A stretch of DNA of 64,000 nt from Muribaculaceae bacterium (GTDB taxonomy: Bacteria; Bacteroidota; Bacteroidia; Bacteroidales; Muribaculaceae). Shown piece by piece: positions 29,222 to 48,947 of the stretch. The stretch lies in NCBI GenBank assembly GCA_017619355.1, contig JAFZSO010000057.1, forward strand, positions 1 to 64,000. The letters are read 5' to 3'. The translations under genes were made by a program, and so were the position numbers. Every line of letters begins with the position of its first letter. Positions within the stretch are counted from its first letter, which is position 1. Below the pieces are notes generated by a model, which saw only the letters and a list, made by a program, of their open reading frames with translations, had not been told where the DNA came from and searched no databases.

Positions 29222-29503
29222 TTGCCAAAACTGGCTGAAATTCCCCAATTTGCCCCCGTACCATCAGTTTTCAACCTTGAAACTTGCTAAAATGAGATTT
29301 TGTTTTGGCATTACATCGGTTATTCTTTGGTATTTTATTGTCTTTTGTCTATATTTGTGCTTGAATTTTTAAGAAAATATTAATGCGATGTGGAGATGAT
29401 ATTCATATTATCCTATGGCTATTAATCAACAGAAGAAAAAGAAACTGAAAGATTATTAGAAAAGCCCCATATGCATATGTGTAACTGATAAATATGGAAT
29501 CAT
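29222..29503. other. AT-rich leader region of the restriction-like module
   Basis: After the terminator the base composition drops to AT-rich. A promoter lies at 29326-29357 and then about 140 bases of untranslated leader. CATATGCATATG at 29468-29479 is a perfect 12-base palindrome, and CATATG recurs at the start codon. Confidence 0.5.
29326..29357 (+). promoter_or_regulatory. Promoter of the restriction-like module
   Basis: TTTG at 29326-29329, 20 bases, TATATTTG at 29350-29357. It fits the Bacteroidetes consensus well. Confidence 0.65.
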
Positions 29504-30682
29504 ATGAAAAAGTATAATCGAGTAATGTTGGGTCGTGGTAGTGCCTATGCTAAGATGTGCCGTGAAGAAGGATATATAGGTGCAGATTTTAGTATTGATT
29601 CTGACCTGTCCGGTGACTTGTTTGAGAATTGGAGGGATTTTAACAACAAATTCATTCCAATATGGTTGAAGAATGTGCCAGGAAAATCCAGGACTTCTGC
29701 TGGACTAGCATGTGGCTTTCTTTGGACTATTGTGAAAGGATTGAAGATCGGAGACATTATACTAAGCCCATCTGGTGAGGGTTACTATTATGTGGGAACC
29801 ATCTCAAGTGATTATTATTATGTTCCTAATACGAAATTGCCTCATCGCAGGAAAGTAGAGTGGATGGACAAAGTGATAGAAAGAAAGAATATGTCAAAGA
29901 AATTGCAGAATTCTTCAGGTTCAATAGGAACATGCTGTGATTTGACAAACTATGCTATGGAGATAGATGCACTATTATCTGGAAACATCACAATTCCTTC
30001 AGTTGTGACCCAACAACCTTCAATTTCTGTAAAATCATTTGAAGAGCGTTCATTACATAAACTGTTTTGTAGTTTTCTGCGTACTCGTGGAATCTTTGCT
30101 AAAACCATTTACCATGAGAAATCATCTTCAAGAACAGACAATACTCAAAAGTGGGTACATCCAGATATTATCGGTGTTCAGTTTGAAGAATACAAGAATG
30201 ACGCAACACTCTCACTATTGAAGGCCACTGAACCCAAAGAGACTGTACACCTCTATTCCTATGAACTTAAAAGAAGAATAGAATCTGACTATCAACTTAA
30301 GCAGTGTTATTTCCAGGCTTTGTCAAATAGCAGTTGGGCTAACTTCGGTTATCTGGTTGCTTTTGAGATTAGCGAGGACTTGGCTGAGGAAATGGAGCGT
30401 CTTAACAACGCTTTTGGCATTGGCATTATCCTGATGCAAGCAAACGACTCGAAGATACTGTATCCTGCCCGTGAAAAGGAACTTGATTATAATACAATTG
30501 AGAAACTAAACAATCTCAATACCGATTTTTGTACATTCATCAACAAATTATCTATGGTCCTTAATGCCTCGAAAGACTACACAAATGATATCAAGCTGTC
30601 GTTTGAAAAGATTTGCGATAAAATTTTTGAGTCAGATGAGGAACAGGAGGCTTATTGCAAAGAACATAACATTCCATTCTGA
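29504..30682 (+). CDS. EVE-like plus HrgA-like nuclease-fold protein, candidate modification-dependent restriction component
   Basis: A 392-residue protein with two parts. Residues about 1-130 resemble the EVE/PUA-like modified-base readers of type IV restriction enzymes (LKIGDIILSPSGEGYYYVGTI, then HRRKVEWMDK). Residues about 180-390 match the HrgA/COG2958 C-terminal region: HPDIIGVQF, YSYELKRRI, FQALSNSSWANFGYLVAFEI and FGIGIILMQ. Asp in PDIIG and Glu-x-Lys in YELKR suggest a PD-(D/E)xK nuclease core. It is AT-rich compared with neighbours. The next gene starts nine bases later. No methyltransferase or helicase is present. Function is inference. Confidence 0.7.
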   Translation: MKKYNRVMLGRGSAYAKMCREEGYIGADFSIDSDLSGDLFENWRDFNNKFIPIWLKNVPGKSRTSAGLACGFLWTIVKGLKIGDIILSPSGEGYYYVGTISSDYYYVPNTKLPHRRKVEWMDKVIERKNMSKKLQNSSGSIGTCCDLTNYAMEIDALLSGNITIPSVVTQQPSISVKSFEERSLHKLFCSFLRTRGIFAKTIYHEKSSSRTDNTQKWVHPDIIGVQFEEYKNDATLSLLKATEPKETVHLYSYELKRRIESDYQLKQCYFQALSNSSWANFGYLVAFEISEDLAEEMERLNNAFGIGIILMQANDSKILYPAREKELDYNTIEKLNNLNTDFCTFINKLSMVLNASKDYTNDIKLSFEKICDKIFESDEEQEAYCKEHNIPF

Positions 30683-30691
30683 TAAACAGAT

Positions 30692-31909
30692 ATGATTGAT
30701 GTAAAAAACTTCATACAAGCATATATCTCTGAAAGAGACACTTTTTTTGACAGAGAGAGATATAAATGGGAGGCAGTCAAGTCTTTCCAAGATAACTATT
30801 TCAGAAAAGATATTCCTCTGGATGAAAGGTTGGAAATACCTTTTAATATAGCTAATAATCTTTTGACATCCCACAACTATTATCCAGCTGGAATGCTTCG
30901 CACTTTCGCAAAGGAAAAGACAGAAGAAACCCAAATATGCCTTGACAATTTATTTGAGGAATCATTACCCCTATTAGAAAGAGTATGGACTTTCCTTGGT
31001 GGCATTGAAAAGATTTTCATGACATTGAAACAGGGAGGATATAGCGATTGGAAAAATAGGACTAACGTACAGTCGTACCAAGACCCTCACACTGTCTCTG
31101 TATATCTTGCATTGAGATTTCCAGACAAATATTATATTTACAAGTGGTCGGTCTTTAAAACCGCTGCTGAAAAATTTGGTTATACTATCAAGTCTAAGAA
31201 TAAGGTTGATAAACTGATTGAATTCTACGAACTCTGTAATACTGTGAAACAGGAGATTCTGAAGGAAAAAGAGTTCTTGGATGATTATCGTGCTAAACTT
31301 AAAGAAAGTGGATTGGCTGATGTTGGTTATAGTATTCTTACTCAAGATTTTATATATGCTGTAGCTACTTATTTGAATGCTGATGATTTTCGTAAAAAAG
31401 GAAAAACGGTAATTAGAAAAGAAAAGGAAATTGAATCATCTGTATTCAATACCGTAATTCTTGAGGCTGGGGCAGAGTTTCGAGGCAAGAAGGGCATAGA
31501 CTTTGCCAAGCGAGATGAACTTTTCAGGGACTTAGGAATAAAAGGCGAAATGTGGGTTGTCAACTATGAGAAGGAACGATTGGCCAGACTCGGTATTAAG
31601 TATGATGTTAGACATGTTTCAGTCGTTGATGGCGATGGTTTGGGATATGATGTGCTATCAGTTGAGGACGATAGTAAGACACCACGCTATATCGAAGTTA
31701 AAACTACTACTGGTGGCGTTGACAGGCCGTTGTTTTTTAGTAGGAAAGAACTTGAGCGCAGCATAAAGGATGCAGACCATTTTTACCTATATAGGGTTTG
31801 CAATTTCAAGGCAGCAAATAAACAAGCAGATGTTGTTATTATTAGAGGAAGTCTCGCAGATCTCAACGCTATTCCCGTTACTTTTGAAATTTCCATTAAA
31901 AAGGACTGA
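30692..31909 (+). CDS. DUF3883 nuclease-like protein with McrB-like N-terminal region
   Basis: A 405-residue protein. The N-terminal 220 residues are helical and contain PHTVSVYLALRFPDKYYIYKW, similar to the N-terminal region of some McrB-type proteins. The C-terminal 150 residues are a DUF3883 domain, a predicted PD-(D/E)xK fold: GKKGIDFAKRDELFRDLG, then DGLGYDVLSVEDD, IEVKTTTGG and FFSRKELERS. Asp-x-L and Glu-x-Lys supply the expected metal site. It lies nine bases after the EVE/HrgA-like gene, clearly in one operon. DUF3883 proteins are common in defence islands; the partner choice here is unfamiliar to me. Confidence 0.75.
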   Translation: MIDVKNFIQAYISERDTFFDRERYKWEAVKSFQDNYFRKDIPLDERLEIPFNIANNLLTSHNYYPAGMLRTFAKEKTEETQICLDNLFEESLPLLERVWTFLGGIEKIFMTLKQGGYSDWKNRTNVQSYQDPHTVSVYLALRFPDKYYIYKWSVFKTAAEKFGYTIKSKNKVDKLIEFYELCNTVKQEILKEKEFLDDYRAKLKESGLADVGYSILTQDFIYAVATYLNADDFRKKGKTVIRKEKEIESSVFNTVILEAGAEFRGKKGIDFAKRDELFRDLGIKGEMWVVNYEKERLARLGIKYDVRHVSVVDGDGLGYDVLSVEDDSKTPRYIEVKTTTGGVDRPLFFSRKELERSIKDADHFYLYRVCNFKAANKQADVVIIRGSLADLNAIPVTFEISIKKD

Positions 31910-31967
31910 TAGTCACAAGATTGTCTCATGTTGTTGGTGATATTAATAATATTTGTCTAAAAAGTTG

Positions 31968-31975
31968 TATCTTTG
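31968..31975 (+). promoter_or_regulatory. -7 element of the fic gene
   Basis: TATCTTTG lies 10 bases before the chosen GTG, so the transcript would have almost no leader. There is no good -33 box; readthrough from the upstream pair is possible. Confidence 0.45.
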
Positions 31976-31985
31976 CATTTATAAA

Positions 31986-33134
31986 GTGGACATTGAAAAT
32001 AAACACATATTGAACGAGTACGAGCAGTATTTGCGCCAAGGAGAACCGTCAAAGCGTGAAAAGGCTTTGACATGGGCAACATCTATTGGCTTGCAACAAG
32101 TTGATGGACTGCAAACTTCTGATTATCTGCATAGTGTTGCTCGTCGTAATATTGAAAATGAAATCACCACCGCTGAGAGCCAACAACTCATAGCCTCTTA
32201 TTATGAACAGCTTAATGCAAAGCGGCAAGAACAATCGAAGGATACCGAGGAGGCCGACCGTGCGGCTGCTAATATAGCTCATATTCTCTCAACAGCAACT
32301 CTGGACTTTACCTCTCATGGACTGAAAATGCTTCATCGTCAGATTTTCAAGGGGATATTCAAGCATGCAGGTGAGTTTCGTGCCTACGATATTACCAAGC
32401 GTGAGTGGGTGCTCAAAGGAGCCTCGGTGCTCTATTTGAGTCATGCCGATCTTCAACGCGCTGTTGATTATGACATAGAACAAGAGCGTCAGTTCAGTTA
32501 TACCTCGCTCTCAACCGATGAGATTGTGCAACACATCACCCGCTTTGTGGCTGGATTGTGGCAGATTCACCCCTTTGGTGAAGGGAACACGCGTACTATA
32601 GCTGTCTTCACCATTCAATATCTGCGTTCATTGGGTTTCAATGTCGATAATGAGATGTTTGCGCTCCACTCGTGGTACTTCCGCAATGCACTGGTGAGGG
32701 CAAATTACAAAAGTGCCACAATCGATTATACCCCTGTTTATCTTGAGCGTTTCTTCCGGAACTTGCTGCTCAATGAGCAATGGGAATTGCGTAATCGCTA
32801 TCTGATTATCGATTTTGATGGTTCAAAACCGAACAAGTACCGAACAAGTACCGAACAAGTACCGATCAAGCTTGAAACGGCATCTCACAATGTCGAAGCC
32901 TTGATCATGGCTATTGGTAAACAACAACTTAAAGCAAGTGATGCCATGATGGCTATAGGACTAAAACATCGTCCATACTTTTTGAGCAATTACCTTAATC
33001 CTGCTATGAAAGCAGGATTTGTGACCATGCTTTATCCCAATAGTCCACGGCATCCACGCCAGCGGTATCTGCTCACCCCCAAAGGACTCGTTTTCTTTAA
33101 CAACAAAACGACATCAAATAACGAGCCCCTCTAA
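31986..33134 (+). CDS. Fic-domain protein (probable AMP transferase)
   Basis: About 382 residues. The Fic core has the active-site motif HPFGEGNTR near residue 194, preceded by a helical N-terminal part and followed by a winged-helix-like C-terminal domain (LLTPKGLVFF). The motif differs from HPFxxGNGR at one place, as in many Fic relatives. NIENEIT in the N-terminal part resembles the inhibitory helix, but the canonical Ser/Thr four residues before Glu is Arg. The only starts after the -7 element are non-ATG; the GTG is chosen because earlier codons lie in the promoter. It follows the restriction-like pair by 76 bases. Confidence 0.82.
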   Translation: MDIENKHILNEYEQYLRQGEPSKREKALTWATSIGLQQVDGLQTSDYLHSVARRNIENEITTAESQQLIASYYEQLNAKRQEQSKDTEEADRAAANIAHILSTATLDFTSHGLKMLHRQIFKGIFKHAGEFRAYDITKREWVLKGASVLYLSHADLQRAVDYDIEQERQFSYTSLSTDEIVQHITRFVAGLWQIHPFGEGNTRTIAVFTIQYLRSLGFNVDNEMFALHSWYFRNALVRANYKSATIDYTPVYLERFFRNLLLNEQWELRNRYLIIDFDGSKPNKYRTSTEQVPIKLETASHNVEALIMAIGKQQLKASDAMMAIGLKHRPYFLSNYLNPAMKAGFVTMLYPNSPRHPRQRYLLTPKGLVFFNNKTTSNNEPL

Positions 33135-33158
33135 TCCTTAATCTCTCATCCCTCATCC

Positions 33159-34892
33159 TCACACAATGCCGAGGATGATGTTGATGAGGGTGGTGACATC
33201 GGAAACATTCACCTTGCCATCGCCGTTCAAGTCGGCGCGATCCACGTCTTTGGGTATCATGCCCAAAATCATGTTGACGAGTGTCGTAACGTCGCTCACG
33301 TTCACCTTGTCATCACCGTTTACATCACTATCTCTTTTAACCTTGAATTTCACCACATCACCTTCCTCGCGTATATCGTAGAGCACCCAATCGCTTCGGC
33401 TGCCACCGAAGGTTTTAAGGTTTGGCATGGTGTTATTGGAAAGCACCGTCACGCCTTTGGTCCCAGGGAACGGATCGCTTGCCGACTGAAATGACATAGA
33501 GTTTCCAGCTCGGAGCAGTTCATAATAAAGGCGTGTTGCATTGGCATTGGGAGCATTGTTTGACCACACGCTGGCATCGGTAGAGTCCATACGGGCTACC
33601 AACATTCCATGTCCAGGTGCGTACATGTCCCATTTGGTCTTCTGTCGGTTCTCGATGAGAAACATCTCATGGTCTTGTTTGGTCTTCAAGATATAACCGT
33701 CGCCAGTAGGACCGATGGGATTCAATTCATAGTCGCCTACAGTCGAGATGATCCTGTAGTTGGCAAAACCAGCAGAATAGCGGTCGTAGAGGCTATAGGC
33801 CACAGGGGTGCGGGCATTATTCTGGTAATTGCCACCAGCCATCAGCTCCCATTCTCCAGGATGTTGTGCCTCACCGTTGATGGCGTCGTCAGTATTGTCG
33901 GTGTCATAGAGGTCGGGGAGTCCCAGCACATGGCTGAATTCATGGCAAATAGTGCCGATACCGTCAAATATTTCATAACTCTTTGCATAGATGTACTCGG
34001 CCGAGCAGGCATAGTCGCGTACGTACTTGCCGTCAAATTTTGTATATGAATAGAAACTCGAGCGGTGTGGCCAGATGTGATTTGGGCTATTGCTGTCGCT
34101 ACTTGAAGGGGTGTCGGCATAAATGAAGTAGATGAGGTCAACAGCGCCATCGTTGTCGATGTCATATTGGCTGAAATCAACAAAAGGGTTGGCTTTCTTT
34201 ACTGCACTGAGGAAGATGTTGTAGGCATACTGGTCTCCTTGATTAACCGAGTAGTCGACCTCGACTGGGCCGACAATATCAAACTGTGGTATGAACATGC
34301 CATTGGAGTTATCGTTGAAGTAGTCACGCACGCTGCCAGTGCAAGCACCATAGGCGTTGGGCGAGCCGTCCTCGTTGGTGTAGCCACTGTAGTTCTCTTG
34401 GTTAATCATATTGTTGTAGAAATCCTGAACATCGCTGCGGGTGAAATGCGAGTCGTTAAACTCCACAAGAATCACCAGTCCGTAGAAATTGTTGTAGTTG
34501 ATTCTCTTGAGCGAGGGCAGTGCATCACGCTGAGCGCGCAACTTTTTGCCTTGCTGCATCTTGCTTGCCGATCGCAGATTCTTGCCTGTCGACTCGAGCC
34601 ACATGTTGTCGGTAGGTGAGCGCAGATTGGCATCGCGAGCCACGATTTTGGATGCCACCACCTCATCGTTGACAAGGGTGCCATAGGTGTAGTAGCCTTG
34701 CTGGTTTTTTATGATGGTGTAACCATCCACGGTAGTCATGTAGTGGTGAAACTCATCACCCTTGATTCGTACTGTGAGTTCCTCGCCATTGGGCTGAGTT
34801 ACCTTTTGAGGGGTGGGAATGGCAGGAACCGCATCAGCTCCCCAACAAGTGAACAAGGAAAACAGTGTTACAAGTATCTTACGAAAATTCAT
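33159..34892 (-). CDS. Secreted M6-family metalloprotease with dockerin-like tag
   Basis: Extracellular zinc protease of the immune-inhibitor-A type, about 577 residues. A signal peptide (MNFRKILVTLFSLFTCWGADA) precedes a propeptide, then the catalytic domain with GTICHEFSHVLGLPDLYD, where the HExxH zinc site and the later Asp are visible, and WELMAGG (Met-turn-like). The C-terminus carries two dockerin-like loops (DVNGDDKVNVSD, DLNGDGKVNVSD). The start is the ATG before the signal peptide; the 32 codons before it are low-complexity and unlikely. It is convergent with the fic gene. Confidence 0.9.
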   Translation of the reverse strand: MNFRKILVTLFSLFTCWGADAVPAIPTPQKVTQPNGEELTVRIKGDEFHHYMTTVDGYTIIKNQQGYYTYGTLVNDEVVASKIVARDANLRSPTDNMWLESTGKNLRSASKMQQGKKLRAQRDALPSLKRINYNNFYGLVILVEFNDSHFTRSDVQDFYNNMINQENYSGYTNEDGSPNAYGACTGSVRDYFNDNSNGMFIPQFDIVGPVEVDYSVNQGDQYAYNIFLSAVKKANPFVDFSQYDIDNDGAVDLIYFIYADTPSSSDSNSPNHIWPHRSSFYSYTKFDGKYVRDYACSAEYIYAKSYEIFDGIGTICHEFSHVLGLPDLYDTDNTDDAINGEAQHPGEWELMAGGNYQNNARTPVAYSLYDRYSAGFANYRIISTVGDYELNPIGPTGDGYILKTKQDHEMFLIENRQKTKWDMYAPGHGMLVARMDSTDASVWSNNAPNANATRLYYELLRAGNSMSFQSASDPFPGTKGVTVLSNNTMPNLKTFGGSRSDWVLYDIREEGDVVKFKVKRDSDVNGDDKVNVSDVTTLVNMILGMIPKDVDRADLNGDGKVNVSDVTTLINIILGIV

Positions 34893-34932
34893 GTTGGTGA
34901 TTTTTGATAAGTGTAGAATTATGTGAGTACGT

Positions 34933-37900
34933 TTATGTTGTGATGACGCCGAGGATGATGTTGATGAGGGTGGTGACGTCAGAGACATTCACCTTGCCAT
35001 CGCCGTTCAAGTCGGCGCGTTCCACGTCTTTAGGTATCACGCCCAGAATCATGTTGATGAGGGTAGTCACATCGCTCACATTCACTTTGCCGTCGCCGTT
35101 CACATCACCCCAAATGGCACTATACTGGTCGGTGATATCCTTCACAGTCCAACGGTTGGTGGCGCTATTGTAGGTGTCGAGTTCGAGATACACATCTTTA
35201 TTGAAGGGGCCAAGGTCCACCGTTTGCGGTGAGCCATTCTGGCTGAAGATGAAATTGAACCAGAAATCAGGGTCGGTCGAAGTGAATCCTTTATAGTAGA
35301 ACTTCTCGCCCTTAATCATCTTAGTGGTAGTCCACCTGTCGCCGGGCCATGAGGTGTGGTCGCACAGGTTGCCGTCGTTGTTCCAAGCCCAGTAGTAGAC
35401 CGAGGTCCAGTTCCAGGGCGACGCCATGGGGTCTTTGACATATACGGTGACAGTGTGCTCGGGCAGGGGATTGAGCACATACTCACAACTGATGGCGTTG
35501 CGCACACGACCTTGATACAGCACGCCCGCCTTGAGCAGGGTGTTGCCAGTGAAATGCAATGTGATGCTGCCTTGAGCCTGCTGGCTGTTAGGTGTGAGTT
35601 CGCTGCCGTCGGTCGAATAGACGATGGTGGCGGTATCGACCGAGGCGGTGATGGTGACATCAAGCGTCTCAGCATTCTCGTAGGTGCCCGCTGGCGGGTT
35701 AACGCTCACAGTGGGCGCGTCATCTACCACATTGGTCACCTCGTGATCCCACACGCCATCGATGTAGTAGCCGTGGTTGCGGAACTCGAGGTCGGCAGTC
35801 TGGTCGGCACCGGCGTTGCTGAAGATGAGGCCGGTGGGCATATTGGAGGCTGTCCAAGTGTCGTTATAGGTCCATTTGAAGATGAGCCGCGTGCCATCCT
35901 GACGCTTGCCCATAAGGAAGGCATTCTGACCGGGCCAATGTCCGCCTGTGAAGTTGGTGCTGTTGTTCCAGGCCCACACGGTCACGATGCTGCGGTTGAC
36001 GGGTGCTTCATAGAACACACACAGTTCGCCGTTCTCCACGGTGGGGGTATATACCTCCAGGCTGTCGAGGTCAGGTATGGTGCCGCCTTGTCCGTTCACA
36101 ATATACTGCGTGTCGGGGTCACCCTCTTCTTGCGTGCCATCGTAGGGCAGCGTGTCGGGGTAACCAGGGGCGGAGTCATAGAGGTAGGGGCCGTCGTTGC
36201 CTATCTTGCCAGGGCCGTTAAGCACATACACGCGCAGGTTGCCCTTGCCGCTAAAGGCGGGTGTAGTGAGTGTGCCGTTGGTCACCTGCTGCACATCGCC
36301 TGTGATGCAGTCGGTATAGGTGCCGTTGAGCACCCCAGTGAAGGTGGCTGTGCTGTTGAGTGCTATCAGGGCGTAACTGTCAATGTCACCGCTGGTGTAA
36401 CGGCGCTTGAAGGCAAAACCGCCACTGGTGGCATTGCAGCCGCTCTTGCTGTACTGTCCCTTGCGCAGAGCAGGCACCGATGCCCTGATTTTGTTCAATC
36501 GCCGCAAATGTTTGGATAGCGGTTTCAGTATCGAGGCAGCCACATTGCGGTCGGCATGTTGAAACTCGCCATCGCTGTTGAGCGTGACATCGCCTTTGAT
36601 GTAGCCGCCAAAGTAGGCGCGGCCGGTGTTGGTGAGGGCATCGTTGGTGCCACGGTCACAGGGTTTGCCTTTACGGAATTCAATCTCGCTGCCGTAGTAC
36701 AGACAGGGGATACCGCGCATGGTGAACATGAGCGACAGGTTCTCGGCCCACTGGTCAGTGCCGCCGTTGAAGCGCGTGTCGGAATCGGGGCCGTAGTCAT
36801 GGCTATCGACATACATCACATTATAAGTGGCATCGTTATAGAGATAGTCCTTGTCGAAGACACCCCACACATTCTGAGCGCTTTGGAAGTTCCAATGCGC
36901 GGTGAAGTCGATGACGGAAAGTCCACTGTTCTGACTGTAGTCGGGTGTGTGATAGGTGTTGCCGTTGAGCAGGGCATTGTTGCTGTGAGGCTGGTTGCTC
37001 TCGCTGCCGGCATTGTCATACTCGGTAAGGCACAGGCTCTGGTTGTCGAGAGTGGCAGGGTCGGTGCTTTCGTACACCTCCACGCCTTGCCAGTAAGCAG
37101 GGTCGTTGTTCCACGCATTGAGCAGACTGGCATCGCTTTGCCAGGTGTAGAAGTATGGAGAGAGTGCAGGCTGGCCGCGATAGGTGATTTCACGCACGCG
37201 CGCACATACCTCTGCAAACATGAAGAAGGGGGCACCGCCAGGGCGCTTGTGCTTGTATTGCTCGCCTAGTTGCTGGAAGGCGGGAATGAATGCCTTGTTC
37301 AGGGTGAGACGGCTCATGTGCCCACCCGTATCGATGCGGAAGCCGTCGACACCCATTTTGATGAATGAACCGTAGCAGTCGATGAGATATTGATAGGTCT
37401 CGGGATTCTCGGTATTCAGGTCCACGCAGTCGCCCGCAATCTGTGCCCACCAGCGGTTGGGCTCGTCCCAGTTGAAGTTGCCGTAGTGGTGCCACAGGTT
37501 GTGGTTGTCGTGGTTCACGCCGTCGGTATTCTTCATCTTGCTGAGGCGGTCCTGATATTGCTGGCCCGAGGGCAGGTTCATATAGTTGTTGTTGAGCAGA
37601 CCGCCTTGCGAGATGGTGTAGGGCACCATGCACTGCTTGATGTCGCTCTGAGGCTTGGTCCAGTCGCGGTCGAAGAGGTGACACAGGTTGGCCTCACCGA
37701 AGTTGCCCGTGTGGTTGAGCACGATGTCGAGGATGATTTTCATGCCTCGTGCGTGTACGGCATCAATGAGGTCTTGAAACTTGCAGTCATGGCTCTCAAG
37801 ACGCTTGTCCACGGTGCTCATGTCCATGGCATGATAGCCGTGGTAGTCCATGCCCGAGGCATTCTGCACCACAGGTGTTATCCAAATGGCGGTGAATCCC

Positions 37901-38163
37901 AGTGCCTTGATGTAGTCGAGTTTCTGGATAAGTCCCTTAAAGTCGCCTCGCCACTCGGGGTCTTGCTGGGCAGCATTTTTGATGCCGTCCCAGCAATAGG
38001 TGTTGTTCTCGTAGTCACCATCATAGAAGCGGGTGGTCATCACGAAGTAGATGGTCTCGTCACGGAAGTCGGTGCGACCACCTATGAACTCGGCATGTGC
38101 CGAGGCAATGCTTGTGATCAGGATAAGGCACAAGGCTAAAGCATGGAGGTGAAAGCGTTTCAT
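34933..38163 (-). CDS. Secreted GH13 alpha-amylase with starch-binding modules and dockerin-like tag
   Basis: A 1076-residue exported enzyme attacking alpha-1,4-glucans. After a signal peptide the GH13 barrel has nucleophile DGFRIDTGG (about 273), acid/base FAEVCAR (about 317) and transition-state Asp in VDSHDYGPDSD (about 451). Two CBM26-like modules with aromatic residues (VWAWNN, VYYWAWNN) flank a chitobiase-like C-terminal beta-sandwich (TIVYSTDGS). Two dockerin-like loops (DVNGDGKVNVSD, DLNGDGKVNVSD) end the protein. No SusC/SusD pair is nearby. The last 160 bases are nearly identical in sequence to the same part of the M6 protease gene. Confidence 0.93.
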   Translation of the reverse strand: MKRFHLHALALCLILITSIASAHAEFIGGRTDFRDETIYFVMTTRFYDGDYENNTYCWDGIKNAAQQDPEWRGDFKGLIQKLDYIKALGFTAIWITPVVQNASGMDYHGYHAMDMSTVDKRLESHDCKFQDLIDAVHARGMKIILDIVLNHTGNFGEANLCHLFDRDWTKPQSDIKQCMVPYTISQGGLLNNNYMNLPSGQQYQDRLSKMKNTDGVNHDNHNLWHHYGNFNWDEPNRWWAQIAGDCVDLNTENPETYQYLIDCYGSFIKMGVDGFRIDTGGHMSRLTLNKAFIPAFQQLGEQYKHKRPGGAPFFMFAEVCARVREITYRGQPALSPYFYTWQSDASLLNAWNNDPAYWQGVEVYESTDPATLDNQSLCLTEYDNAGSESNQPHSNNALLNGNTYHTPDYSQNSGLSVIDFTAHWNFQSAQNVWGVFDKDYLYNDATYNVMYVDSHDYGPDSDTRFNGGTDQWAENLSLMFTMRGIPCLYYGSEIEFRKGKPCDRGTNDALTNTGRAYFGGYIKGDVTLNSDGEFQHADRNVAASILKPLSKHLRRLNKIRASVPALRKGQYSKSGCNATSGGFAFKRRYTSGDIDSYALIALNSTATFTGVLNGTYTDCITGDVQQVTNGTLTTPAFSGKGNLRVYVLNGPGKIGNDGPYLYDSAPGYPDTLPYDGTQEEGDPDTQYIVNGQGGTIPDLDSLEVYTPTVENGELCVFYEAPVNRSIVTVWAWNNSTNFTGGHWPGQNAFLMGKRQDGTRLIFKWTYNDTWTASNMPTGLIFSNAGADQTADLEFRNHGYYIDGVWDHEVTNVVDDAPTVSVNPPAGTYENAETLDVTITASVDTATIVYSTDGSELTPNSQQAQGSITLHFTGNTLLKAGVLYQGRVRNAISCEYVLNPLPEHTVTVYVKDPMASPWNWTSVYYWAWNNDGNLCDHTSWPGDRWTTTKMIKGEKFYYKGFTSTDPDFWFNFIFSQNGSPQTVDLGPFNKDVYLELDTYNSATNRWTVKDITDQYSAIWGDVNGDGKVNVSDVTTLINMILGVIPKDVERADLNGDGKVNVSDVTTLINIILGVITT

Positions 38164-47272: not shown

Positions 47273-48190
47273 TCAATATAGCAAATCATTTAATTTCTCT
47301 GCCTCTACTCTTAGTTTTGTCGGGTTTTGTTCGGCCAGTTTCTGTAGGTTGAGAAGTTTCCATTTGACAGATGGGAAGTCTTTGAAATGTGCAAACTCAT
47401 AGTTGTCCCATTCTGGCTCGCCATATTCAAAACTAACGAGAAAACGACGGTCTGCATCTGTTAAGATGTTATTAACGTCAGATATTAGTTTTGTACGAGT
47501 TTCTTCAAATTCTTCGTATGAAAATGGAGTATCGGTCATACCAACAAATTGATTGGCAAGTGCCTCATGCTGATCAATAAGAGTCGGAGCAAACGATTCA
47601 TGAATGGGACGGTCACTGCCAAGTAAACAGAAAATGAGACCTTCACGGCAATCCTTCAGCGGAATTGTCATGTACTTTACATCGAATAGGTCTCGTGGAT
47701 GTTGACGTGAAAGTGCAGCAGCAACCTTACCTCCATAGAGTAGTGAAATAGGAACAATGTCAGCGATACAATATACTTGGAACTCATCCTGTGCCTTTTC
47801 GCATAATGGAAGATGCATTAACTCACCACCTACGATCCCTCGTTTTGTTTGGTTTACCTCAACCTTGACTTGTTTGCCTCGGTATTCGCATAGCAATTTA
47901 CAGGTAGCATAGTTTGGAAAGATGTGCATACCTGGGAATGCTTTACGTGCTTTCTCGCTAATCGATTTCAGATGAAAGTTAATGTCATCAATACTTTTCT
48001 TACGGTCAGCTAAGGGAATATAAGTGAGATCAATGTCAACAGAATACCTAGGCAGATTCCTTAGGAAAAGATTGATTGCCGTTCCTCCGTGTACAGCAAA
48101 AACCTTTTCTTCCATAACCAATGGTAACAAACGTAAAAGTAAGTCAACCTTTTGTGCATAGACGCTTGTTTGTATATCTTGTTTATTCAT
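47273..48190 (-). CDS. abiEii: AbiEii-type nucleotidyltransferase toxin
   Basis: Toxin of a type IV toxin-antitoxin pair that adds nucleotides to an RNA target. The 305 residues contain the nucleotidyltransferase core HGGTAINLFLRNLPRYSVDI with DLTY, where the Asp-x-Asp metal site is visible, then KVEVNQTKRG and the helical end with ALSRQHPRDLFDVKYM. It overlaps the AbiEi gene by eight bases, the standard arrangement with the antitoxin first. Confidence 0.92.
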   Translation of the reverse strand: MNKQDIQTSVYAQKVDLLLRLLPLVMEEKVFAVHGGTAINLFLRNLPRYSVDIDLTYIPLADRKKSIDDINFHLKSISEKARKAFPGMHIFPNYATCKLLCEYRGKQVKVEVNQTKRGIVGGELMHLPLCEKAQDEFQVYCIADIVPISLLYGGKVAAALSRQHPRDLFDVKYMTIPLKDCREGLIFCLLGSDRPIHESFAPTLIDQHEALANQFVGMTDTPFSYEEFEETRTKLISDVNNILTDADRRFLVSFEYGEPEWDNYEFAHFKDFPSVKWKLLNLQKLAEQNPTKLRVEAEKLNDLLY

Positions 48191-48947
48191 ATTCTGCTAA
48201 TTCTTTTGGAATTGTAATTTTATATTTTGAGACATAGACACCACCTTTGCACAATTGTATTTTAGAAGTGCCAAGGTTTATTCGGCCAACATCAATAGCT
48301 TGATACCAAGGATAATTAGCCTTTTCTGCCATATAAAGGAACATTCTTTTGACAGTCATGTTATTAGTCGTTTCAAGCAGTTGCTGAACTTTGGCTGGGC
48401 GAAGTGCCGTTAATTGCTCCATGATGTAATATAAATCCATGAAGCTATATCTATTTGGGGCCAATAGAAGACATTCCATGAATGCAAGTTCCGGGGAAGA
48501 TGCTTGTACGGTATAATTGTTTTGTTTTATTGCTTGTTTCTGGATTAGGCCGAAAGCTGATGTCGTAAAAAACTCTATTGCCATATCAAACAAATCACTT
48601 TTTGCCCATTGAGGAGTTCTTGGCTCATCGCTAGCAACCATAAGTTGTGGTTTCCCCATTGGTACATAATGGTAATAACCAGAAAGCTCAAGAGCAGAGT
48701 GGGCTGCTACACGATACTGTTTACCAGTTTGCTCCTGGCAACTTGCTAAAGCTGCCAATGCTGATAGAGAATCTCCGCTACGATACATCACCCCCTTAGA
48801 CAAGGATGTCAGCCAGCCAGATTTACGGTACTGCTTCATCAACTGATCAGAATACCCCTGCTTCTTTAGTCCCTTGGAAAAAAGTATTCCTCCAGGGAGT
48901 ATATTCATTAGTAATGAGTTGATTTTGCTCTTCGTTTCTATAGCCAT
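48183..48947 (-). CDS. abiEi: AbiEi-type antitoxin
   Basis: Antitoxin and transcriptional autorepressor of the AbiE pair. The 254 residues have an N-terminal winged helix (LKKQGYSDQLMKQYRKSGWL, GVMYRSGDS) and the conserved RVAAHSALELSGYYHYV. Its promoter overlaps a perfect 18-base palindrome, a suitable operator. It is the first gene of the AT-rich island next to mnmE. Confidence 0.9.
   Translation of the reverse strand: MAIETKSKINSLLMNILPGGILFSKGLKKQGYSDQLMKQYRKSGWLTSLSKGVMYRSGDSLSALAALASCQEQTGKQYRVAAHSALELSGYYHYVPMGKPQLMVASDEPRTPQWAKSDLFDMAIEFFTTSAFGLIQKQAIKQNNYTVQASSPELAFMECLLLAPNRYSFMDLYYIMEQLTALRPAKVQQLLETTNNMTVKRMFLYMAEKANYPWYQAIDVGRINLGTSKIQLCKGGVYVSKYKITIPKELAEYE

Follow-up and report, generated by a model that had tools for sequence, protein, structure and literature searches.

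Two putative single-polypeptide restriction factors with McrB-type N-terminal domains in a Muribaculaceae bacterium

Do two adjacent genes of a Muribaculaceae bacterium form one type IV restriction system, or are they two restriction factors that lie side by side? The genes are located in a stretch of 64,000 nucleotides (assembly GCA_017619355.1, contig JAFZSO010000057.1, positions 1 to 64,000 of the forward strand; hereafter, the window), for which a sequence-only reading had proposed the former. Gene A (29504..30682, plus strand) encodes a protein of 392 amino acids (aa) that combines a reader-type N-terminal domain, designated A_N, with an HrgA-type nuclease, while gene B (30692..31909, plus strand) encodes a protein of 405 aa that combines an McrB-type N-terminal domain, designated B_N, with a NOV_C nuclease. 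The reading favored here, to which we assign a probability of about 0.6, is that A and B work separately, each as a single-polypeptide, type-IV-like restriction factor, and are carried on one transcript within a small acquired defense segment that also holds a Fic gene.

The two open reading frames (ORFs), their shared strand, and the 9-nucleotide (nt) spacing between the A stop and the B start were as first described, and this gap suggests that A and B are transcribed together. The pair was indeed AT-rich, with G+C contents of 0.378 (A) and 0.369 (B), and 0.446 for the Fic gene, versus 0.497 for the whole window; G+C at third codon positions (GC3) was 0.37 and 0.33, respectively, versus 0.75 and 0.71 in two genes nearby. 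In agreement with the sequence-only reading, no methyltransferase, helicase, or GTPase was seen adjoining the pair, with the neighbors judged by eye and family searches covering A, B, and Fic.

Occurrence of A and B in other genomes

Relatives of A were collected by way of the HrgA domain, with the best 80 of 145 being retained and more distant relatives not included, and ORFs of at least 80 aa were called by a crude longest-first rule. The 79 retrieved loci together with L030, minus L077 (a fragment starting at A residue 192), comprised 40 HrgA-only loci and 39 A-type loci outside the window (L030 and L039 to L076), the latter including near-identical metagenome-assembled genomes (e.g., L056 to L058) and not representing 39 independent events. 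Places present in duplicate were counted once: L069, L070, L073, L074, L059, and L060 are, from their lengths, apparently the same contigs as G270, G128, G010, G055, G696, and G714, respectively, and a genome place available as a short and a long copy (e.g., L133 and L226) was counted as the long copy. A matched 6/297 genomes of the family, its own included, and a DNA search added three more in the genus (G714, G696, and G684). Any match to B was obtained in 23/297 family, 28/393 order, and 10/198 phylum genomes, its own included each time, and full-length B besides that of the window was present only in G632 (41%), G521 (38%), G904 (34%), and the viral contig L257 (31%).

Results revealed that the two genes do not travel together. 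No B_N gene was found within four ORFs of A at the 39 A-type loci (0/39; the contig stops just past A in L052 and L064), and blastp of B against the ORFs of these loci gave no match at 1e-4. A was likewise not seen beside full-length B at the other B loci (0/4), both flanks being visible in G632 and G904 and the contigs of G521 and L257 beginning 83 and 300 bases, respectively, upstream of B, on the side where the window has A. At the level of whole genomes, A had no match at E ≤ 0.001 in G632, G521, or G904 (0/3), with a query that does find its own genome, and full-length B was absent from the genomes with an A-type or A_N gene (0/11), among which partial B matches occurred in G696 (an McrB-like ORF) and G270 (the NOV_C part). 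The A-B pair was unique to the window in everything searched, and a recurring two-gene unit was rejected on these four counts. The proposed two-gene type IV system was accordingly not supported, since co-occurrence had been named as its test and A and B were found apart elsewhere. The related claim, that no described system has just these two components, held in that no description of A together with B was found in the open-license PMC papers searched, and it must be qualified in that parts of both proteins are listed in PADLOC (PDC-S02 and PDC-S36).

Domain composition and kinship with McrB proteins

The N-terminal domain of A (A_N, residues 1 to 165; 29504..29998, plus strand) matched the N-terminal half of the PADLOC PDC-S02 models, which covered A residues 1 to 175 (E = 1.5e-67) at model positions 1 to 174 of 308 only and matched all 33 members of alignment A2. 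It is followed by an HrgA-type PD-(D/E)xK nuclease region (about residues 176 to 392; 30029..30679, plus strand), and here the sequence-only reading was borne out by two lines of evidence. In a tblastn search against plasmids (of the 33 matching records, none spanned 80% of A), A residues of about 150 to 357 matched places annotated "HrgA protein," and the catalytic-type motif HPD219-221 ... E254-L-K256 (30158..30271, plus strand) was present in 81/81 HrgA-domain ORFs examined, a count in which HPD, unlike E-x-K, belonged to a search pattern used for retrieval. Moreover, H219, P220, D221, E254, and K256 were invariant across the 33 members of A2; PD-(D/E)xK residues serve in nuclease catalysis. 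Protein A had no Pfam or NCBIfam family above cut-off, and matches such as SAS-6_N, below the family cut-off, were taken as chance; sequence comparison with solved structures gave no match, PDB hits with E values from 0.026 upward also being taken as chance. No relative of A was detected in the phage collection searched.

Both halves of A also occur in other combinations. In HrgA proteins that lack A_N, the N-terminal region scored against the HARE-HTH model of Pfam exactly at its cut-off in L079 and below it in L087, while A gave no match to HARE-HTH (PF05066) in the Pfam search. Compared with HrgA/HARE-HTH-REase proteins, A has the same nuclease region (about 50% identity, with the same HPD ... 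E-x-K motif), but their HARE-HTH-type N terminus is replaced by A_N. In addition, an Acinetobacter plasmid protein that is encoded between hsdS and hsdR, and that PDC-S02 matched end to end, has A_N fused to a nuclease of the NucS_C type. Because the HrgA nuclease occurs without A_N, and A_N occurs on a NucS_C-type nuclease, A represents a domain swap, with an A_N reader on an HrgA-type nuclease. Its likeness to PDC-S02, a single-gene defense candidate, thus lies in A_N, whereas the nucleases differ (HrgA type in A, NucS_C type in the plasmid protein); a passage of one rumen survey counts 2715 PDC-S02 occurrences (PMC13356809).

A_N had been described as EVE-like, which was retained in a weaker form. 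The Pfam EVE model (PF01878) matched neither A nor any of the 33 members of A2, and hhalign with shallower alignments returned probabilities of 0.6% and 1.9% (control, 0.3%); an EVE domain in the strict sense was rejected on these grounds. With deeper alignments, the probabilities rose to 26.5% (P = 0.0007) and 13.6% (P = 0.002), versus 0.1% for two controls. D84 and W120 alone were invariant in alignment A5, D84 aligned with the aspartate in a GD of EVE, and the A-type domain and an EVE domain stand in tandem within some McrB proteins. Taken together, the alignments are no more than suggestive of kinship between A_N and EVE.

Protein B consists of B_N (residues 1 to 250; 30692..31441, plus strand) and a NOV_C/DUF3883 nuclease domain (residues 285 to 376; 31544..31819, plus strand). 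The latter, claimed earlier as a DUF3883 nuclease-like part, was confirmed by PF13020 (7.1e-17; 61.7 bits against a cut-off of 22.1) and by the catalytic-type motif GYD318-320 ... E335-V-K337 (31643..31702, plus strand), present in 5/5 full-length B proteins; in a passage of published work, DUF3883 is termed a novel restriction endonuclease (REase) domain (PMC3710099). The PADLOC models PDC-S36, PD-T4-1, and TmtA matched the C-terminal part of B only (residues 266 to 377), with PDC-S36 matching 3/3 members of alignment A3. Thus, B has its C-terminal domain in common with PDC-S36, PD-T4-1, and the NOV_C/DUF3883 nucleases and differs from them in the addition of B_N. No Pfam family exceeded its cut-off in residues 1 to 250, and a DUF7020 match on B (0.048) was taken as chance. 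Single-sequence patterns found no relative of B in viral contigs, where alignment A3 retrieved two. In G632 (L157:9872-12216), an ADP-ribosylglycohydrolase gene (PF03747, 7.7e-35) immediately precedes the full-length relative of B, and the two ORFs overlap by 7 bases.

B_N was common to McrB-like proteins, which placed the McrB-like N-terminal part of B on firmer ground than first claimed. A profile of four B_N sequences, run in a single pass over the ORFs, matched 22 places besides the full-length B genes, and a single-pass A_N profile matched five B_N-bearing proteins, always behind B_N: L133 (1.2e-11), L122 (3.4e-8), L126 (5.1e-6), L121 (2.7e-5), and, marginally, L009 (4.5e-4). An iterated A_N search also drew in McrB proteins, but with inflated E values, and the single-pass profiles were relied on instead, together with a reverse test in which a profile of five McrB segments, run against 1917 ORFs, recovered A of the window at 9.8e-8. 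Reversed and shuffled ORFs gave no match to either the A_N or the B_N profile at E values up to 10.

Sixteen of the 22 places were viewed in wider context (L015, L022, L024, L132, L142, and L203 were left out), and these 16 McrB-like proteins had been selected by B_N or EVE. All 16 contained a Walker A motif, and an McrC-type gene adjoined 12 of them, as judged with a profile seeded from two of the same loci, L206 and L207, themselves Pfam confirmed; the Pfam AAA_5 match exceeded its cut-off in L206 and L207, whereas that of L208 fell short of it. A_N stood between B_N and the Walker A motif in 4/16 (L224 to L227), with an EVE domain additionally behind A_N in L224 and L225; the A_N match of L208, the longer copy of L009, fell below the limit used in this survey. 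The remaining 12 had no A_N, contrary to a general rule of B_N-A_N pairing. A further example, the viral contig L258, reached via the B alignment, encodes B_N (residues 8 to 228), A_N, and EVE (residues 397 to 520), followed by an McrC-type gene, its A_N being matched at residues 301 to 354 by the window-family profile (7.6e-7) and at residues 237 to 378 by the McrB-segment profile (5.2e-52). In L223, found via A_N, the protein has A_N and a Walker A motif and is accompanied by an McrC-type gene, and the B_N profile gives no match. The B_N-A_N-EVE McrB-like gene and McrC-type gene of L258 are preceded by genes of 641 and 1014 aa that resemble, by eye, a type III restriction-modification (R-M) system (L258:991-9478).

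Where both domains occur in one McrB polypeptide, A_N comes next after B_N, on the N-terminal side of the GTPase. The proposed link between A and B was not upheld as a recurring gene pairing, yet it persists in another form, in that their N-terminal domains are neighbors inside single McrB polypeptides. The window thus carries two McrB-arm modules, each joined to its own nuclease, without the GTPase. McrBC systems share these arm domains with A and B, whereas A and B gave no AAA GTPase match, McrC had no match in A, B, or Fic, and the nuclease families of A and B differ from that of McrC. The HrgA-type nuclease, the NOV_C nuclease, PDC-S02, and PDC-S36 are already known or listed; what appears to be new is the combination of A_N with an HrgA-type nuclease and of B_N with NOV_C, as well as the consecutive occurrence of both N-terminal domains in some McrB proteins.

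Separate action and competing explanations

If A and B are separate restriction factors, a domain of the McrB-arm kind (A_N in A, B_N in B) would select DNA by a mark or sequence foreign to the host. The selected DNA would then be cut by the PD-(D/E)xK nuclease of the same protein, which is of the HrgA type in A and of the NOV_C/DUF3883 type in B, with each protein working alone and without a GTP-driven motor. Selection by modified bases would be the likeliest rule, because passages in print interpret McrB arms (PMC11090510) and HARE-HTH nucleases (PMC10853773) in this way. We infer binding of modified DNA, cutting, and an anti-phage effect for both proteins, and both genes probably guard against viruses. 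Type-IV-like restriction, as proposed earlier, is still the most plausible function for each protein, a reader plus a nuclease without a methyltransferase, and was not upheld as a two-gene system. With regard to what defines type IV enzymes, nuclease domains with catalytic residues were found in both proteins (HPD ... E-x-K in A; GYD ... EVK and NOV_C in B), and no cognate methyltransferase adjoins the pair by eye, yet type I R-M genes occur close to 15/39 relatives of A.

Separate action is supported by the domains and intact motifs of both proteins, by the exchange of readers and nucleases between proteins, by the presence of both N-terminal domains in McrB-like proteins, by the recurrence of A without B and of B without A, by the absence of the segment from the nearest relative, and by PADLOC, which carries parts of both proteins as single-gene candidates. 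A comparable one-chain design is described for EVE-HNH enzymes such as VcaM4I (PMC7897488), which likewise unite reader and nuclease but consist of EVE and HNH, instead of A_N or B_N with PD-(D/E)xK. The genomic company of A relatives is also relevant, with the Hsd, Fic, McrC, and B_N labels of neighbors resting on self-built profiles with few seeds. Type I R-M genes were found within four ORFs at 15/39 A-type loci versus 1/40 HrgA-only loci, and in seven of the 15 (L030, L047, L049, L056, L057, L058, and L076) A lies between hsdS and hsdR. The frequent siting of A near or inside type I operons fits the published TgvAB, a modification-dependent pair of the GmrSD family that is lodged in a type I operon and is active against Tevenvirinae (PMC11411939). 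The likeness is one of position, since A and B gave no GmrSD match and no type I genes adjoin them in the window.

Several observations weigh against this interpretation. No recognized type I R-M genes were present within four ORFs at the other 24 A loci, the kinship of A_N to EVE is weak, and the consecutive B_N and A_N of some McrB proteins hint at joint rather than separate action. The last point leads to a motor-free, split McrB, in which the B_N and A_N arm modules reside on two cotranscribed proteins, each with a PD-(D/E)xK nuclease; both modules would have to bind DNA, or each other, before a double-strand cut, and their coincident binding to foreign DNA would replace the GTP-driven assembly of McrBC. 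The arrangement in L258 and in the 4/16 McrB-like proteins, the recovery of window A by the reverse profile test, and the short A-B gap all speak for it. We nevertheless regard it as unlikely, given that the pairing was seen once, that neither the A loci nor the B loci (upstream unseen in two of the four) repeat it, that the three B genomes gave no match to A and the 11 A-type or A_N genomes no full-length B, and that most of the McrB-like proteins viewed (12/16) do without A_N.

An alternative that we judge improbable makes A an accessory of type I R-M or another resident defense system, stray in the window, with B as an unrelated passenger. Besides the 15/39 A loci near R-M genes, A_N proteins of other kinds inside type I operons (L164, L218, L219, and L221) agree with such a role; however, the majority of A loci and the window itself are without type I genes within four ORFs, A also occurs among ordinary genes (L159 and L160), and the neighbor labels are those of the few-seed profiles mentioned above. 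Still less credible is that Fic is the functional partner of A and that B was inserted between them. The order in the window is A-B-Fic, and Fic directly follows A in L070/G128 and L073/G010, where it is 56% and 54% identical, respectively, to the Fic of the window, but these are the only 2/39 A-type loci with Fic within four ORFs, and no mechanism is known by which an HrgA-type nuclease would depend on Fic. Finally, it is very improbable that A and B are mere passengers that at present serve no function in this strain: the segment is absent from the nearest relative and the pairing is unique among what was searched, whereas the ORFs and catalytic motifs are intact. Moreover, the dN of 0.107 between window A and L030 A, with synonymous sites saturated (so that no dN/dS ratio is given), argues for selection on the family, not on the window copy.

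Two loci among these relatives have additional features. In the viral contig L030 (3481-15954), A is preceded by HsdM, HsdS, and a 433-aa gene and followed by a gene for a small EVE-like protein, whose PF01878 match is below cut-off, and then by HsdR, with a second HsdS/HsdM pair on the opposite strand after HsdR. In L219 (8467-10303), two tandem A_N-related genes (307 and 307 aa) stand between hsdS and hsdR, the second being matched only in an iterated search at 17% identity.

These proteins show that McrB-arm recognition modules exist free of the GTPase, joined to varied nucleases (HrgA type, NucS type, and NOV_C), with A_N and B_N representing two modules for which no Pfam model exceeded its cut-off. 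Should modified bases prove to be bound by either reader, small one-chain enzymes would be available for direct expression and assay, and the order B_N, A_N, EVE, GTPase would allow the specificity of some uncharacterized McrBC systems to be dissected module by module. Joint action of A and B would instead offer a simple model of motor-free restriction by coincidence detection.

Surroundings of the pair in the window

The extent proposed earlier, 29504..31909, covers A and B, but the ensemble runs further, with a Fic gene after B (31989..33134, plus strand; PF02661, 1.1e-11; PF21247, 4.2e-22; PADLOC PDC-S72, 4.3e-112). The Fic start was assumed to be the GTG at 31989, the ORF opening at the TTG at 31953. 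Within the Fic frame, before the Fic-like_C part, positions 32828-32870 hold an 11-base tandem repeat (ACCGAACAAGT; 3.9 copies, 96% matches); adding or removing a single unit would cause a frameshift, and the repeat could act as a phase-variation switch.

The flank upstream of this segment was matched in 80/81 genomes of the genus, the nearest relative being G122 (86% over 946 bases). After this flank, G122 has genes for a 153-aa SprT-like and a 337-aa TerC-like protein (named by eye), followed by the amylase-like gene; in the window, the SprT-like/TerC-like position is occupied by A, B, Fic, and a protease-like gene. None of the four relatives aligned matched 29300-33160, and in comparison with these four, at least, the A-B-Fic segment is therefore an insertion or a replacement. 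Upstream of A, a promoter-like match (TTG, 20 nt, TATATTTG) lies at 29327..29357 on the plus strand and is of the Bacteroidetes type. When the 366-base intergenic stretch was resampled 5000 times (first order), 8% of the resulting sequences contained such a match too, and the promoter that the pair was said to have of its own is kept as no more than a candidate.

Beyond the segment, protease-like and amylase-like genes (named by eye) on the minus strand at 33159-38163 end in similar repeated stretches that look like dockerin repeats. A second low-G+C stretch, at about 42 to 49 kb and with unlisted genes, contains an AbiEii/AbiEi pair (47273-48947, minus strand; PADLOC, 3.2e-103 and 2e-75).

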